A stretch of DNA of 64,000 nt from the NCBI RefSeq assembly GCF_016888005.1, contig NZ_JAFDVE010000022.1, positions 1-64,000 of the forward strand. Direction: 5' to 3'. Source of the DNA: Phycicoccus sp. CSK15P-2. Its GTDB lineage: Bacteria; Actinomycetota; Actinomycetes; Actinomycetales; Dermatophilaceae. Below the pieces are notes generated by a model that was not told the DNA's origin, made no database searches, and worked only from the letters and a program-made list of their open reading frames with translations. The translations under genes and the position numbers were made by a program. This document shows, piece after piece, positions 6,723 through 26,587 of the stretch; position 1 is the first letter of the stretch, and every line of letters begins with the position of its first letter.

Positions 6723-7168
6723 TGGCCTTCACGGTGCACCGCAGCACCTCCCTCCCGGCGCCGCAGACCTGGGCGGTCGTCACCGACCTGCCCGAGCACA
6801 CCCGTCACGTGCCGCTCACCGACGTCGAGGTCGCCGGCGACCTCGCGCTCGGGACGGAGGTCCGAGCCGTGACCCGCGTCGGCCCCCTGGCGGGCGCGGA
6901 CCGGATGCTCGTCACGGCCCTCGAGCCCGGCCGTCGGCTCCGCCTGGTCAAGACCGGCTGGTTCCTGCGCGGCTGGGCCGACATCACGGTCGAGGACTCC
7001 CCCGAGGGCAGCCGGGTCGAGTGGACCGAGGAGCTGTGGCTCCCGGGGCTGCGCCGCGTGACCCGTCCGCTCGGGGACCGCCTCGGCCCCGTGCTCTTCG
7101 GACGCGTCGTCGACGGCCTCGTGAGCGGGGCCGAGCGGGCCGCGCCGGGCCGGGGGAGTGCCCGATGA
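6722..7168 (+). CDS. SRPBCC-superfamily protein
   Basis: A 148-aa protein of the START/polyketide-cyclase-like fold. It begins FTVHRSTSLPAPQTWAVVTD, the usual first strand and helix of SRPBCC proteins, and continues with the expected strand-rich core and a C-terminal amphipathic helix. Such proteins bind hydrophobic ligands; none can be named here. It overlaps the previous gene by 1 nt and the next by 4 nt (ATGA), so translation is coupled. Confidence 0.8.
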   Translation: MAFTVHRSTSLPAPQTWAVVTDLPEHTRHVPLTDVEVAGDLALGTEVRAVTRVGPLAGADRMLVTALEPGRRLRLVKTGWFLRGWADITVEDSPEGSRVEWTEELWLPGLRRVTRPLGDRLGPVLFGRVVDGLVSGAERAAPGRGSAR

Positions 7169-9261
7169 CCTGGTCGCTGCTCGCCGCGGCGGCCGCGCTG
7201 CTCGCGCTGGCGGCCGTCGCCGGATGGCTCGCGCTGCGTCCCGGCGGCGCCCGGGCCGCGGCCGTGGGGAGCGCCGACTCGTTCCGGACGGCGGTCCGCG
7301 GGTACCGGATGGACCAGGTCGACGAGGTCGTCGAGCGGCTGCGCACCCGGATCGCGTCGCACGACGTCGAGATCGCGCGGCTGCGCGGCGAGGAGCCCGC
7401 TGCGTCGGCCGTGGCCCTCGCCGAACCGCAGGCGCCGGCACCTCCGACCGAGGGCCCGGTGGACGCGGGGGACGACCCGCCCCCTCGAGACCGGCCGGCA
7501 GCCGGGACGGATCCGACTGCCGGCGACCCCGCGCCGTGGCGTGCCGGTGACTGGCTCGCCCCGCTCGCGTACCTCGTCGCCGCCGCCTACGTGACGCGCC
7601 ACCTGCTCGCCGGCATCCGTACCGGCTACCTGTCCCAGGGCGTCCAGGACCAGCAGGCCTTCGAGTGGTACTTCGGCGCCACGGCGCACAACCTCGTCAC
7701 CTTCTCCAACCCCCTCATCAGCGACCTCCAGAACTTCCCGGACGGCGTCAACCTCATGGCGAACGCCGCCGTCCTGGGGCTCGGGGTGCCGCTCGCCCCG
7801 GTGACCCTCCTCGCCGGGCCGGAGGTCACGTTCGTCCTCGTCGAGCTCCTCGGTCTGGCCCTCACGGCGTCGGCCTGGTACGTGCTCTTCCGGCGCCGGC
7901 TCGCCGTCCACCCGGCCCTCGCGTTCCTCGGTGCGGCGCTCGCCGGCTTCGGACCGGGCATGGTCTCGCACGCCAACGGGCACCCGAACTTCGTCGTCCA
8001 GGCCCTCGTCCCGCTCGTCGTCGACCGTGTGCTCCATCTCGCGGAGGGGCGGCGCCCGGTCCGTGACGGCGTGGTGCTCGGTCTCCTCGTCGCCTGGCAG
8101 GTGCTCATCGGCGAGGAGGTCCTGCTCCTGGCCGCCGTCGGCATCGGCGTGGCCGGTGCGGTGCTCCTCTCCGACGCGCGGGCCCGGGCGCGGCTGGCGC
8201 TCCGGCCCGCGCTGCAGGGTCTCGGCCTGGCGGCCGGGCTGGCCGCGGTCCTCGTCGCGTTCCCGCTCTGGTGGCAGTTCTCCGGTCCGCAGAGCTACAC
8301 CTCGATCTGGCACCCGCCTGCGGGCAACGACCTCGCGCAGCTGTGGGGACGGGCCACCCGTACCGTCGGGGCCGATCCGTGGGCGTCCGCGGCGGTCTCG
8401 ATGAACCGCACCGAGGAGAACTCGTTCTTCGGCGTCCCGCTCTGGGTCGCCGCGGCCGTCACCGTGCTCCTCCTGTGGCGCAGCGCCGTCGTCCGGGCCC
8501 TCGCCGCCGTCGTCGTCGTGTCGTGCTGGCTCAGCCTCGGTGAGGAGCTCACGCTGCACGGCACCCCGCTCGGCGTCCCCGGCCCGTGGGCCCTCCTGGA
8601 GCACGTCCCGGTCGTCGAGAACGTCCTCCCCACCCGGTTCGCCCTCGTGGCGCTCCCGGCGTTCGGGGCGCTCCTGGCGCTCGGTGCCGAGGCCCTGCGC
8701 CGCAGGGTGGACGACGCGGTGGGGGACGAGGGGCCCGGCGCCGCGCTGGCCGTGGTCGCCGCGGCGCTCGTGCTCGCGCCCGTCGTCCCCACCCCCCTCG
8801 TCGTCGACCCGCGTGACCCGGTCCCGGCGTTCTTCACGGCAGGCGCGTGGCGCGGGTACGTCGACGACGGCGGCTCCGTCCTCGCGGCGCCCCCGCCCGA
8901 CGTCGCCGACACCCGGGCGCTGGAGTGGCAGGCCGCGGCGCGCTGGCAGTTCCCCGTCGTCGCGGGCTACTTCGTCGGTCCGGACGGCTCACCCGAGCGA
9001 GGCGGCCAGTACGGTGCCACGCCCACGGGCCTCACGGTGTGGCTCGCCGAGACGGCCCGGAGCGGTGTGCCCACTCCCGCCACGCCGGAGCAGGTGGACG
9101 GCTTCACCGCCGACCTCCGGGCCGGGCGCGTGGACGCGATCGTGCTGCCGGACGGCCGCCCCTCGGCCGACGCCCTGCGCACCGCGCTCTCGCTGGCGTT
9201 CGGCGAGCCGGACCGGGTCGGCGGGGTCTCCGTCTGGGACGTCCGAGGGCAGGCCGGATGA
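7165..9261 (+). CDS. DivIVA-like domain fused to large polytopic membrane protein
   Basis: A 698-aa protein. Residues about 3-26 are a membrane segment, 38-70 a DivIVA-like segment (FRTAVRGYRMDQVDEVVERL then a charged coil), 75-120 a Pro/Glu-rich linker. From about 128 a polytopic region resembles GT-C glycosyltransferase-like membrane proteins, with loops such as NFPDGVNLMANAA and HANGHPNF. The last 130 residues are soluble. The first 70 residues repeat the plan of the 95-aa protein upstream, suggesting duplication and fusion. ATG 7165 overlaps the preceding stop. A glycosyltransferase or lipid-linked sugar role is inferred from shape and from the adjacent mannosyltransferase-like gene; I cannot identify catalytic residues. 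Confidence 0.7.
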   Translation: MTWSLLAAAAALLALAAVAGWLALRPGGARAAAVGSADSFRTAVRGYRMDQVDEVVERLRTRIASHDVEIARLRGEEPAASAVALAEPQAPAPPTEGPVDAGDDPPPRDRPAAGTDPTAGDPAPWRAGDWLAPLAYLVAAAYVTRHLLAGIRTGYLSQGVQDQQAFEWYFGATAHNLVTFSNPLISDLQNFPDGVNLMANAAVLGLGVPLAPVTLLAGPEVTFVLVELLGLALTASAWYVLFRRRLAVHPALAFLGAALAGFGPGMVSHANGHPNFVVQALVPLVVDRVLHLAEGRRPVRDGVVLGLLVAWQVLIGEEVLLLAAVGIGVAGAVLLSDARARARLALRPALQGLGLAAGLAAVLVAFPLWWQFSGPQSYTSIWHPPAGNDLAQLWGRATRTVGADPWASAAVSMNRTEENSFFGVPLWVAAAVTVLLLWRSAVVRALAAVVVVSCWLSLGEELTLHGTPLGVPGPWALLEHVPVVENVLPTRFALVALPAFGALLALGAEALRRRVDDAVGDEGPGAALAVVAAALVLAPVVPTPLVVDPRDPVPAFFTAGAWRGYVDDGGSVLAAPPPDVADTRALEWQAAARWQFPVVAGYFVGPDGSPERGGQYGATPTGLTVWLAETARSGVPTPATPEQVDGFTADLRAGRVDAIVLPDGRPSADALRTALSLAFGEPDRVGGVSVWDVRGQAG

Positions 9262-23664: not shown

Positions 23665-23670
23665 CGGGCG

Positions 23671-23695
23671 CCGGAGGGCCTCCGGGCCCATGGGC
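23671..23695 (+). terminator. Hairpins after the L,D-transpeptidase gene
   Basis: CCGGAG-GGC-CTCCGG (23671-23685) is followed by the palindrome GCCCATGGGC (23686-23695), 7 nt after the stop codon. No U-tract. Confidence 0.45.
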
Positions 23696-23738
23696 TCAGC
23701 CGCCCGGACGTCGTGATGCGGGGACGCGAGGACTGCCG

Positions 23739-23896
23739 GATGGGAGCGTCTTCGACGGCGAGCGGCTCGACGAGGAGTGTCGGCAGATCATCGTGGACCA
23801 GCCGGTCGGCCGCTACCTGCTCGCCGTCACCGAGTTCCAGATGAAGGTCGTCGACCGCGAGGCGGTCTTGCTCGAGGGGCCGATCCGGGAGACGAC
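23739..23896 (+). pseudogene. Short coding-like fragment, family unknown
   Basis: In one forward frame these 158 nt have strongly GC-biased third positions and read like protein (SVFDGERLDEECRQI, then LLAVTEFQMKVVDREAVLLE). There is no start codon or ribosome binding site, and the coding signal fades after 23896 although the frame stays open. It is probably a remnant cut off by the event that brought in the 24.0-26.6 kb cluster. I do not recognise the family. Confidence 0.35.
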
Positions 23897-23964
23897 TACT
23901 GCCCAGGGCGGGCCGTCCGCAGTCCGGATGCAGGTTGTTGCAGTCTGCTTGGTGGGCCGTCGGA

Positions 23965-23985
23965 TGCAGAGGCAGCATCTCTGCA
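23965..23985 (+). promoter_or_regulatory. Hairpin in the leader of the ThiF-like gene
   Basis: TGCAGAG (23965-23971) and CTCTGCA (23979-23985) form a perfect 7-bp stem with a 7-nt loop, 42 nt before GTG 24028. It could be an attenuator or RNA stability element. The region 23665-24027 has no other convincing gene. Confidence 0.4.
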
Positions 23986-24027
23986 GGGGTGCCGTGGGGC
24001 ACCGCCCGGCGGGGAGGAGCAGGGAGG

Positions 24028-25194
24028 GTGCGACCACAGTTGAAGGACGTCGTCTGGGAACGCACGGACGACGAGCTCACGCTCGTCTTCGACCGGCGCT
24101 CGCCACTCGTCGTCACCGATGTCGACGGTCGGATGGAGATGCTCCTGGGGCTGCTGCGGCTCGGAGGACTCACGGTCGACGAGCTCGCCGCGCGGCTCTC
24201 GCAGGAGGGCCCTGCGGTGCCGCCGTCGGACGTCGCCGACATCGTGGCGACCCTCGACGGCCACCGGCTGGTCGAGGACGGCGAACGGCTCGGCCGGTAC
24301 CGGGGCGATCTGGGTGAGCGGCACTACTCGAACCTCGCGTTCTTCGAGACCTTCGCGACGCTGGCGCGCTCGCACGAGGATCTCCTCGACGCGGCGCGCG
24401 GCGCCCATGTGCTCGTGCTCGGGACCGGCGGCCTCAACTCCAACACCGTCCCGCACCTGGCGGGGCTGGGGGTCGGCCGCCTGACCCTCGCCGACCGTGA
24501 CCTCGTCGAGGCCAGGAACTTCGCCAGGCAGTACCTCTACTCGTGGCGCGATCTCGGGCGGTCCAAGGTGGAGGCGGCCGGTGCGTGGGTCGAGCGCTTC
24601 GACCCCGACCTCGACGTGGCGACCCACGAGCTCGACGTACGAGGTCCCTCCGACGTCGCCCGTCTCGTCGACGAGACGGCTCCGGACGTCGTCATGTCGG
24701 GCATCGACTCGCCGCGGGAGGTCGACCTGTGGGTGAACGAGGTCTGCGTCCCGCGTGGCGTCCCGTTCGTCCGCGGGGGGATGGGCGTCTCGGCGGCCGG
24801 AGTCTGGTCCGTCGTGCCGGGGGTGAGTGCGTGCCGGATGTGCCTCGAGCTGGCGGACCCCACCCACGGCGAGTCCGACTTCTCGCCCGGGAGCGACGAC
24901 GCGCACACGAGAACCGCTCGCAGGATCTTCGAGGCCAAACCCCGCGTCAACCGGGGGATCGGGGCGGTCGCGGGGCTCCTGGGCTCGTACGCGGCGTTCG
25001 AGGTGATCCGCCTGCTCACCGGCTTCCAGGAGCCGCAGTACTCCGGCTCCCTGCTCACCATCGACCTGGTCGACGGATGTTCCACCACGGTTCGGCGCTG
25101 GGAGCGGCACACCGACTGCCCGGTCTGCCGGGCCTTCGGCCCGCTCGACCGCCGGACGACCTCCAGCACGTCGCGACGGCCGGTGGCCGTCTGA
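24028..25194 (+). CDS. E1/ThiF-like adenylyltransferase with N-terminal RRE/PqqD-like domain
   Basis: A 388-aa protein. Residues about 1-90 (WERTDDELTLVFDRRSPLVV, then helices LLGLLRLGGLTVDELAARL) resemble a PqqD-type peptide-recognition domain. The ThiF/MoeB/HesA domain has GTGGLN (132-137), ADRDLVEARNFARQYLY, and a zinc site from Cys269/Cys272 (CRMC) and Cys364/Cys367 (CPVC). This order recalls MccB of microcin C and pantocin-type enzymes, which activate the carboxylate of a short peptide with ATP. GTG 24028 has GGGGAGGAG about 8 nt upstream. A 22-codon gene follows 33 nt downstream, supporting a peptide substrate. Confidence 0.8.
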   Translation: MRPQLKDVVWERTDDELTLVFDRRSPLVVTDVDGRMEMLLGLLRLGGLTVDELAARLSQEGPAVPPSDVADIVATLDGHRLVEDGERLGRYRGDLGERHYSNLAFFETFATLARSHEDLLDAARGAHVLVLGTGGLNSNTVPHLAGLGVGRLTLADRDLVEARNFARQYLYSWRDLGRSKVEAAGAWVERFDPDLDVATHELDVRGPSDVARLVDETAPDVVMSGIDSPREVDLWVNEVCVPRGVPFVRGGMGVSAAGVWSVVPGVSACRMCLELADPTHGESDFSPGSDDAHTRTARRIFEAKPRVNRGIGAVAGLLGSYAAFEVIRLLTGFQEPQYSGSLLTIDLVDGCSTTVRRWERHTDCPVCRAFGPLDRRTTSSTSRRPVAV

Positions 25195-25227
25195 CGCCCT
25201 GCCGCGACGACCGAGAGGAGGTGCCCC

Positions 25228-25296
25228 ATGAAGATCGAGATCCGTGAGGTGGAGAACACCCGCCTGACCGTCTGGGTCCCCGAAGAGGACAGCTGA
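25228..25296 (+). CDS. 22-aa putative precursor peptide
   Basis: ATG 25228 is preceded by GAGAGGAGG (25213-25221) with 6-nt spacing, among the best ribosome binding sites in the window. The product begins MKIEIREVEN, has a single Trp16, and ends VPEEDS. It lies between the ThiF-like and M50-like genes, and the same 9-base binding site precedes the latter. Size, position and the two flanking proteins with peptide-recognition-like domains make it the likely substrate of the cluster. No known precursor family is recognised, and it could instead be a translational leader. Confidence 0.6.
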   Translation: MKIEIREVENTRLTVWVPEEDS

Positions 25297-25369
25297 CCCG
25301 GTCACGTCCGACCAGGTGGGCCGGGGCCGGAAGGTCAGGTCCCGGTCCACCACCCGAGAGGAGGCTTCT

Positions 25370-26587
25370 GTGGACGAGACGACGGAGACCACGTCCTCCG
25401 AGCCGCTCGCCGTGGGCCACGGCCTGCGGCGGCTCGTCGTGGCGGACGAGGACGACGGCTGCGTCCTCGGCCGGCCTGACCTCGGCCGCTATGTCACCGT
25501 GCCTCCCGCCGGCGGCGCGTTCGTGCGGTCGCTGCAGGACCACGGTGACCTCGTGCGCGCCACCCGCGCAGCCACCGAGGTCGCGGGTGAGGAGGTGGAC
25601 GGTGAAGACTTCGTCCGGGCGCTCGCCGGGATGGGCCTGCTCACCGATCCGGAGGTCGACGAGACCCGGACGCGGCCACTGGTCACCCCCGGCGTCGCCG
25701 GCGTCTTCTTCGGCCGGGTCGCGTGGTGTGTCTACGCCGTTGCTGTCCTCGGCTCGCTCCTCGCGATCCTGTCGACGCCCGCCCTACGGCCCGGGTACTC
25801 GGACGTGTGGTTCCTTCGCGACAAGGCACTGTCGTCACTGGTCGTCGGGCTCGTCGGTATCGCGCTCGCGGGGGTCCACGAGCTGTGGCACTGGCTCGCG
25901 GGACGGGCAGAGGGGCTGTCCGGGCGGTTCCGGGTCAGTCGACGTGGTGTGTTCCTCGTGTTCGAGACCGACCTCACCGAGGTCGTCACCATGCCACGGG
26001 CTCGACGCCACGGCATCTACCTGGCCGGTATGGCGGTCGACTCCGTCATCCTCGCCATGGCCCTCCTCGTGGAGTGGCTCGCGCTCTCGGGGAGTGGCGG
26101 GCTCCCCGCCGGGGTCGGCCGGTTCGCGGCCGCCGTGGCCTTCATCAAGGTCGTCGGCATCGGACAGCAGTGGGCCATGGTCTTCCTCCGCAGCGACGTC
26201 TACGCGCTGCTCGCCAACCTGCTCGGTTGCCACAACCTCTACCGCGCCACCTGGCTGACGACCAAGAGGCGAACCGTCGGTCTCACCACCCCCGAGAGCG
26301 ACGAGCTCGCCCGGATCGGCGAGCACGACCGGGCGGTCGCAGCGTGGTTCGGCTGGGTCCATCTCAGCGGTCTTGTCGCCGTGGCGGCCATGGTCGTCTT
26401 CTGGGTCGTCCCCTACCTCGCGGGCATGGTGCGGTGGCTGGTGCCGGTACTCGCCCGTGGCGATGTCGGGTCAGGTCAGTTCTGGACGGCCGCCGGTCTG
26501 CTGACCCTGACCGCCGTCACCTGGCTCACGCCGGTGGTCGTCGCGGTGCGGGAACGTCGTCTGCGCCTCGCGGGTCGCCTGCTCTAG
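25370..26587 (+). CDS. M50-like membrane zinc metalloprotease with PqqD-like domain
   Basis: A 405-aa protein. Residues about 18-100 look PqqD-like (GHGLRRLVVADEDDGCVLGR and helices ending ALAGMGLLTDPE). From about 105 there are six or more membrane segments. HELWH (His170, Glu171, His174) inside the second membrane segment matches the HExxH of intramembrane M50/site-2-type proteases seen in peptide maturation. GTG 25370 follows GAGAGGAGG by 5 nt. With the ThiF-like enzyme and 22-aa peptide it forms a three-gene unit; a role in leader cleavage, export or self-protection is inferred. Confidence 0.75.
   Translation: MDETTETTSSEPLAVGHGLRRLVVADEDDGCVLGRPDLGRYVTVPPAGGAFVRSLQDHGDLVRATRAATEVAGEEVDGEDFVRALAGMGLLTDPEVDETRTRPLVTPGVAGVFFGRVAWCVYAVAVLGSLLAILSTPALRPGYSDVWFLRDKALSSLVVGLVGIALAGVHELWHWLAGRAEGLSGRFRVSRRGVFLVFETDLTEVVTMPRARRHGIYLAGMAVDSVILAMALLVEWLALSGSGGLPAGVGRFAAAVAFIKVVGIGQQWAMVFLRSDVYALLANLLGCHNLYRATWLTTKRRTVGLTTPESDELARIGEHDRAVAAWFGWVHLSGLVAVAAMVVFWVVPYLAGMVRWLVPVLARGDVGSGQFWTAAGLLTLTAVTWLTPVVVAVRERRLRLAGRLL

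Follow-up and report, generated by a model that had tools for sequence, protein, structure and literature searches.

The stretch of DNA analyzed here, called the window below, comprises 64,000 nucleotides of Phycicoccus sp. CSK15P-2 (contig NZ_JAFDVE010000022.1 of assembly GCF_016888005.1, positions 1-64,000). At 24028-26587 it carries three intact genes on the + strand, which encode a ThiF/E1-type enzyme (here E1), a peptide of 22 codons, and a membrane metalloprotease resembling the M50 family (Table 1). We describe evidence that these genes probably form an operon for a ribosomally synthesized and posttranslationally modified peptide (RiPP), in which E1 would activate the C terminus of the precursor and the M50 protease would release its modified short core. 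A RiPP system in which two proteins with RiPP recognition elements (RREs) surround one precursor gene had been proposed in a first-pass annotation of the window, and the conservation of the precursor, the matches to RREs, the closest solved relatives of E1, and the fold and daptide protease match of the M50 family support that proposal.

Table 1. Positions in the window of the three genes and of the features assigned to them (aa, amino acids; pN/pS, proportion of nonsynonymous relative to synonymous differences)
Feature	Position	Strand	Remarks
RRE-ThiF (E1-like) adenylyltransferase	24028..25194	+	GTG start, 388 aa; Pfam ThiF 2.1e-40 over residues 113-366
E1 N-terminal RRE-like domain, residues 1-86	24028..24285	+	profile, AlphaFold2 model, Foldseek
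Shine-Dalgarno stretch of the peptide gene, CCGAGAGGAGG	25211..25221	+	identical 11 bases at 25354-25364, before the protease gene
22-residue precursor peptide, MKIEIREVENTRLTVWVPEEDS	25228..25296	+	relatives in 48/51 loci
Leader MKIEIREVENTRLT, 14 codons	25228..25269	+	invariant Glu9 and Thr14; low pN/pS
Core VWVPEEDS, 8 codons	25270..25293	+	variable among relatives
RRE-M50 intramembrane metalloprotease	25370..26587	+	GTG start, 405 aa
Protease N-terminal RRE-like domain, residues 15-93	25412..25648	+	profile and fold matches
HELWH zinc motif, residues 170-174	25877..25891	+	His170, Glu171, and His174 invariant in 12/12 proteases
Asp276, likely third metal ligand	26195..26197	+	invariant in 12/12 proteases

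A short open reading frame (ORF) led by a Shine-Dalgarno stretch is weak evidence for a gene when taken alone, since five starts of 15- to 30-codon ORFs with a GGAGG-type site exist on the two strands of the 64 kb. The first-pass annotation had remarked that the peptide and protease genes share this stretch, which is correct, but gave its length as nine bases instead of 11. It had also suggested looking for a conserved small ORF in other pairs of ThiF and M50 genes. In Janibacter sp. HTCC2649 (L002), the nearest named relative, MKLEIRKVENTRLTYFIPDYDS occupies the slot of the window peptide, and of 51 separate loci in which E1 and M50 genes occur together, 48 contain a recognizable precursor, as judged with scan patterns that were composed after the first precursors were known. 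We therefore regard the short gene as real, and a chance ORF is ruled out by this homology together with a leader under apparent purifying selection. Eight precursors had no match among the NCBIfam precursor families.

The loci were gathered as follows. The protease search covered 394 genomes of the class, of which 18 match at an E value of up to 1e-3, and the E1 searches covered 396 genomes of the order (6 at 1e-30), 297 genomes of another family of the same class, here f24 (92 at an E value of up to 1e-20), and 186 genomes of the window's family (5 at 1e-20); the window genome is counted in the class, order, and own-family searches. Thirty-seven loci have wide flanks (the window, L002, L003, L029, L030, L034, L039-L048, L085-L099, L102, L103, L110, L111, L117, and L118), and the other 14 have flanks of 1.5 kb except for L138 (L063, L066-L072, L074, L077, L080, L082, L083, and L138). 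Twenty wide-flank regions were picked by hand among the better E1 matches at a time when their neighbors were not yet known, and the short flanks belong to the remaining best E1 matches. L104, which is from the genome of L002, and short copies of wide loci were dropped as duplicates, and genes around the loci were called by a script that evaluates G+C content by codon position. A pattern scan of a public genome collection returned two relatives among 54 pattern matches and hence is a narrow sieve. Loci with E1 and no protease match (L100, L101, and L112-L115) were left uncounted; candidate precursors are present in L100, L101, and L114, with a weak one in L113, and the precursor scan found none in L112 or L115 and one weak candidate in L054, a short copy of L115. 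The candidate in L114 (positions 7728-7793 as oriented), MKNVTVRRAEKVEATVWWIIV, lies before E1 (window's gene order) and ends in WWIIV. In L111, E1 is a fragment, the match to which covers residues 208-367 only; this locus looks truncated, with precursor and protease remaining, and at 6951-8773 (oriented) a regulator match stops 12 bases before the E1 match.

The trio of precursor, E1, and protease genes stays together across three gene orders, with the precursor located between the enzyme genes in subfamily A as well as in the family of the window, before E1 in subfamily B, and after the protease in two Streptomyces plasmids (L117 and L118), where it reads MEIKVRKVEDVKATGLQV. ATG, GTG, and TTG are all seen as precursor start codons. 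In L110, another locus of this family, two precursors lie in tandem between E1 and protease, with nearly equal leaders and the cores GLCGDCIGNS and TLCGDCLDS; like L002 and L111, it belongs to the family of the window. In the gene tables of the two plasmids, the protease is entered as hypothetical and no precursor is listed (the plasmid table is stated to be incomplete). E1 relatives occur on large Streptomyces plasmids, this genus accounting for 21 of the 42 plasmid records that match E1.

In the 21 peptides that we tabulated, which belong to subfamilies A and B or are closely related to them, the leader is always 14 residues long, Glu9 and Thr14 are invariant, and the core comprises 4 to 11 residues. 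Four further kinds of peptide outside the table, with the cores VRDA, VKDA, TNGTV, and QYMT, also keep Glu9 and Thr14. By codon comparison, the leader is under purifying selection, with pN/pS values for codons 2-14 of 0.43 in subfamily A (10 peptides) and 0.47 in subfamily B (7 peptides). The first core codons gave values of 1.28 and 1.33, respectively, with cores aligned ungapped from the end of the leader, which is to be read as a lack of conservation and not as positive selection. The C-terminal Ser is present in 10/10 subfamily A peptides and is encoded by AGC in six and TCC in four; as these codons cannot be interconverted by single changes, this final residue seems to be selected.

Two variant arrangements bear on the roles of the leader residues. 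Seven loci (L031-L033 and L035-L038) have no E1 in the stretch read and carry a precursor of the form MKKIxxRKxGxVRLT followed by a variable core, a similar RRE-M50 protease, a downstream tetratricopeptide repeat (TPR) protein of about 700 amino acids (7/7), and, in 4/7, a divergent protein joining a Streptomyces antibiotic regulatory protein (SARP) part with NB-ARC. This E1-less arrangement may represent the same scheme with a peptide that stays unmodified. Its precursors keep the Thr and have Gly in place of Glu9, and it is on this basis that Thr14 would serve the protease and Glu9 would serve E1, either by contacting the enzyme or, with lower likelihood, by being its target. In another seven loci (L040-L043 and L045-L047), a DUF6879 protein (PF21806 at 2.1e-33 in L042) lies beside E1 and M50, and six of them have a precursor; five of these peptides end in SNSVGN and one ends in SGNSNS, those ending in Asn being from L040, L042, L043, L045, and L046.

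Among solved chains, MccB (4.1e-47) and PaaA (2.2e-45) are nearest to a profile built from nine E1s, and MccB is also the top Foldseek match of the E1 model, although at a value weaker than 0.001. Invariant in the nine aligned sequences are G132, G134, G135, R167, K180, and D227, as well as Cys269, Cys272, Cys364, and Cys367, which form two CxxC pairs. A YcaO-type azole cluster, in which ThiF would be a docking part, was considered and rejected, as the adenylation residues of E1 are intact and YcaO is not among the recurring neighbors, a survey that included no YcaO family search.

A profile of the nine E1 N termini matched PaaA residues 7-91 at 1.3e-9 and PqqD (5sxy) at 0.045. The AlphaFold2 model of E1 residues 1-86, with predicted local distance difference test (pLDDT) scores of mostly 66 to 89, consists of strands followed by three helices, and the RRE-bearing proteins ThcOx and McbB are among the Foldseek matches of the E1 model. 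The N terminus of the protease matched the lasso peptide RRE TbiB1 by both profile and fold, and the protease matched the NCBIfam lasso PqqD model weakly (E value of 0.044). While single matches of the protease domain are of middling strength, the E1 and protease N termini match each other at 2e-5. Judged from these profiles and predicted folds, both N-terminal domains are RRE-like. The first-pass annotation had named two outcomes that would refute it, namely, a 22-codon gene not conserved between homologous pairs and N-terminal domains of which neither resembles PqqD/RRE; both were checked, and neither was observed.

HExxH and R-x-D-x-Y are common to 12 proteases of the family. The window protein, with membrane helices, HExxH, and a conserved Asp, has the features of an M50 intramembrane protease, and Asp276 is likely to be the third metal ligand, as in M50 enzymes in general. 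Pfam Peptidase_M50 matches 6 of 12 relatives weakly (E values of up to 1, the best being 0.0021). In NCBIfam, one relative matches the daptide intramembrane metalloprotease (daptide_HExxH) at 5.1e-6, and two relatives match RseP weakly (best, 0.0024). By fold comparison, the family is SpoIVFB-like. The first-pass annotation had compared the enzyme with MccB and pantocin enzymes, assigned PqqD/RRE-type N termini to both proteins, and likened the HELWH protein to M50 proteases that mature peptides; the closest solved relatives of E1, the domain matches, and the SpoIVFB-like fold with the daptide protease match agree with it on all three.

Beside 35 of the 51 loci lies an NB-ARC-TPR protein, mostly of the SARP type and mostly of 700 to 1100 amino acids. 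For f24 loci with a strong E1 match, a divergent SARP/NB-ARC-TPR-type regulator was present in 31/33, that is, in 19/19 with wide flanks (L029, L030, L085-L098, L100, L102, and L103) and in 12/14 others, with L066 and L077, which have short flanks, as the misses. The gap from the regulator match to the module in the 19 loci is 37 to 353 bp. In one f24 genome of 9.07 Mb, the BTAD proteins number about 29 (there are 30 matches, but a single frame accounts for two of them), and the chance of finding a regulator within 0.4 kb is therefore about 0.3% per locus. L101, in which the E1 match is weaker and a protease match is lacking, encodes a short SARP in the same orientation, and the weaker f24 E1 loci (L039 and the DUF6879 group) have no regulator. 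In the window's family, a same-strand NB-ARC-TPR protein is encoded directly upstream in L002, L110, and L111 (Pfam domains were checked for L002), and in the Streptomyces plasmids L117 and L118, a BTAD regulator gene lies upstream of ThiF. The pairing of regulator and module is strong evidence for a functional tie, which is compatible with peptide sensing or with plain gene switching.

A regulator hidden in the window was sought by tblastn with the regulators of four relatives and rejected, nothing better than an E value of 0.059 being found; the window's own genome has two distant regulator matches only (31-32%). A TPR regulator adjoining the precursor, as in RRNPP-like systems, is thus absent from the window. 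Upstream of E1 is a 363-bp gap (23665-24027), at the place where same-family relatives have the NB-ARC-TPR gene, and a frame within it looks like part of a different protein (FDGERLDEECRQIIVDQPVGRYLLAV...). In a tree, 26 regulators that accompany the module or the E1-less arrangement were compared with 18 further SARPs from a single genome; the tree requires 5 label changes, at least 4 of which are forced, versus 14.2 after shuffling. These 5 changes indicate that the link has arisen repeatedly or has been swapped. Apart from the regulators, the TPR protein of the E1-less loci, and DUF6879, every recurring neighbor family was confined to at most 6 of 43 loci, and no exporter was found at a constant position next to them.

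The reading that we consider probable is that E1 would hold the 14-residue leader via its RRE and use ATP to adenylate the short core at its C-terminal carboxylate. Attack on the acyl-AMP would follow, most simply by a backbone amide, yielding a cyclic imide, or by an amine, and the M50 protease, binding the same leader via its own RRE, would cut at or near Thr14. The released product would be a modified peptide of about 8 residues for the window and of 4 to 11 residues for its relatives, and it may be a peptide antibiotic or a signal. We infer the C-terminal activation, the cleavage point, the release, and the product from the features described above. The cores GFAV, GLQV, QFMT, QFVT, and QNPAT are free of Asp, Glu, Cys, and Lys; as they have no Asp or Glu, the C terminus is their only carboxylate. 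Assuming that E1 acts alike on the core throughout the family, comparison of these peptides and analogy with EnfB, the enzyme of enterofaecin, make the C-terminal carboxylate its likeliest target. The first-pass annotation had named the C terminus and a Glu or Asp side chain as alternatives without choosing between them.

E1 might instead activate a side chain, either of Glu9 in the leader or of a core Glu or Asp in the manner of PaaA, and so form a cross-link or a lactone, for example, to Thr14. Invariant Glu9, found in 21/21 tabulated leaders, may keep leader side-chain activation alive, the DUF6879-type, L039, and L044 precursors have an Asp or Glu at the corresponding position while the seven E1-less loci have Gly, and the window core has a Glu-Glu pair like the one on which PaaA, a close solved relative, acts in the precursor of pantocin. 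However, this pair is present in only 1 of the 21 tabulated peptides, the window's own; Glu9 belongs to the portion of the peptide that would rest on the RRE and so may serve E1 binding; and Thr14 is also kept where E1 is missing, which points to the protease and weakens the case for a lactone. We consider side-chain chemistry unlikely, although it deserves more weight than the alternatives that follow. A microcin C-type product, in which a nucleotide is joined to the C terminus and enters target cells with the peptide as its carrier, is suggested by MccB being both the closest solved relative and the top Foldseek match of E1 and by 5/6 DUF6879-type precursors ending in Asn. The MccB route requires a C-terminal Asn, but Asn is the last residue in 0/21 tabulated peptides and in none of the four further kinds, the window peptide ends in Ser, and there is no exporter at a fixed place, so that this possibility appears very improbable to us. 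A pearlin-like role, with the peptide as a reusable scaffold to whose activated C terminus a small amine is joined and then clipped off by the M50 protease, is conceivable: the M50 proteins TglG and TmoG are reported to free C-terminal amino acids from scaffold peptides (PMC10885120), and EnfB is reported to be able to amidate activated C termini with amines (PMC12250964). Yet no neighbor family besides those named above exceeds 6/43 loci, the cores are diversified, and two different ones are adjacent in L110; we give this scheme little credence. That the short ORF is incidental and E1 and M50 do other work, such as protein tagging, would fit the 3/51 loci without a precursor, but the conserved leader under apparent purifying selection, the three gene placements, and the RRE-like domains of both enzymes leave this idea hardly any credibility.

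Several observations weigh against the proposed C-terminal activation and M50 release or the evidence behind them. No precursor was found in L003 (which contains runs of N), L047, and L048, and the C-terminal residue varies among the 21 peptides (S, 11; T, 4; V, 2; A, 2; G, 1; H, 1). The window protease matches no Pfam family, Peptidase_M50 included. In the profile search with the E1 N termini, a chain named Ap3 (5.1e-4) comes after PaaA but ahead of PqqD, and matches to calmodulins and troponins start at 0.05; Pfam PaaA-like_N matches 1/9 E1s below the cut-off, PqqD matches weakly in 3/9 E1s and 3/12 proteases, and both Foldseek searches were without a match at an E value of 0.001 or better. 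Past residue 86, the E1 model is poor (mean pLDDT of 42.5). An NB-ARC-TPR regulator is lacking in 16/51 loci, namely, the window, L003 (N runs), L034, L039, L040-L048, L066, L077, and L099, although in L066 and L077 it was looked for in flanks of 1.5 kb only. Moreover, the module-linked regulators are not one clade, which fits repeated recruitment and equally fits ordinary pathway-specific SARPs. Genes resembling major facilitator superfamily and ATP-binding cassette transporters, among which there may be an exporter, lie 2 to 8 genes from the module, at varying positions, and in at most 6/43 loci each.

Of the features of RiPPs made by a ThiF-like adenylyltransferase (TLAT), the window has a ThiF domain with ATP-site residues, an RRE-like domain fused at the N terminus, and a conserved adjoining precursor. 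The features tested support assignment of the locus to the ThiF-like RiPPs, among which it is distinct from microcin C, from pantocin, and from enterofaecin itself. A close likeness exists to enterofaecin of Enterococcus. According to a review of ThiF-like RiPP enzymes (PMC12250964), the precursor EnfA has 21 residues, versus 22 for the window peptide, and an RRE-ThiF partner, EnfB, whose essential residues Arg167, Lys180, and Asp225 resemble R167, K180, and D227 here; EnfB activates the C terminus, with a backbone amide as the nucleophile (cyclic imide) or an added amine. The EnfA leader motif (V/I)RKA resembles VRKV, IRKV, and IRKA, which occur among other forms in our relatives, the window leader reading IREV. 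The EnfA end, WWIVI, is absent from the 21 tabulated peptides, and WWIIV occurs in the L114 candidate only. The enterofaecin cluster also has four transporter genes (PMC12250964), while the present loci differ in the RRE-M50 protease, the lack of a fixed-place exporter, the NB-ARC-TPR regulators beside relatives, and other cores. Pantocin A PaaA (5ff5) matches the E1 profile over nearly its whole chain, including the RRE; unlike pantocin A, the family has no conserved Glu-Glu core and the PaaA-like_N match is confined to the single E1 mentioned (other pantocin genes were not searched for). For microcin C, it is the E1 domain of MccB that is closest, and the C-terminal Asn is what sets the two apart.

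Other systems share single traits with this one. The IndF/IndP system of Streptococcus and GrcB likewise have a minimal precursor and an RRE-ThiF enzyme, and Ind also has a protease. IndP is an M16 protease and Ind has a transporter (PMC12150305), whereas the protease here is M50 with its own RRE; IndF and GrcB use nucleophiles other than that of EnfB. The Ind study reports a RefSeq scan that yielded 27,400 RRE-ThiF fusions, along with several groups of candidates left unexamined, and the present branch may be among these, undescribed. Intramembrane HExxH proteases in RiPP operons are also known from daptides, EpeP, and TglG/TmoG (NCBIfam and PMC10885120), but the fused N-terminal RRE and the ThiF partner are distinctive here. 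An RRE-M50 partner of a ThiF enzyme, the three gene orders, and the NB-ARC-TPR regulator were not found in the openly licensed full texts that were searched.

In light of the regulators, it is possible, though we hold this tentatively, that the product is a modified peptide pheromone, with E1 capping or cyclizing the 4- to 11-residue core, the RRE-M50 protease releasing it, and the adjoining NB-ARC-TPR regulator, of SARP or HTH type, acting as its intracellular receptor. The window copy would then be a signal maker whose receptor gene has been lost or is elsewhere. In RRNPP regulators, TPRs bind small peptides, and the membrane metalloprotease Eep trims the precursors of Rgg pheromones (PMC10075063 and PMC13361665). 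Rgg/SHP systems resemble the present loci in having a small precursor gene adjoining a TPR regulator and in involving a membrane metalloprotease; they differ in that an enzymatically modified peptide is expected here, that the NB-ARC-TPR proteins are mostly 700 to 1100 amino acids long, that the hosts are Actinomycetota, and that the window has no such regulator. According to a SARP review, metabolites are what NosP responds to; the review also cites a title on peptidyl ligands (PMC10972967).

The ThiF-like enzymes of RiPP pathways form a young group whose chemistry is surprising, and the characterized cases in the literature consulted come from enterobacteria, Bacillus, and lactic acid bacteria (PMC12150305 and PMC12250964). 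The loci described here add a sizeable actinobacterial branch in which a second RRE is fused to an intramembrane protease and the precursors are so short that annotation easily misses them. The NB-ARC-TPR regulators beside most relatives and the likeness to enterofaecin-type precursors go beyond what the first-pass annotation had seen. So minimal a system should be easy to reconstitute, and its pairing with NB-ARC-TPR regulators opens a direct test of what activates large SARPs. If the pheromone reading is true, the system would be the actinobacterial equivalent of Rgg/SHP, with NLR-like proteins as its basis, and would provide a genetically encoded ligand for large SARPs.

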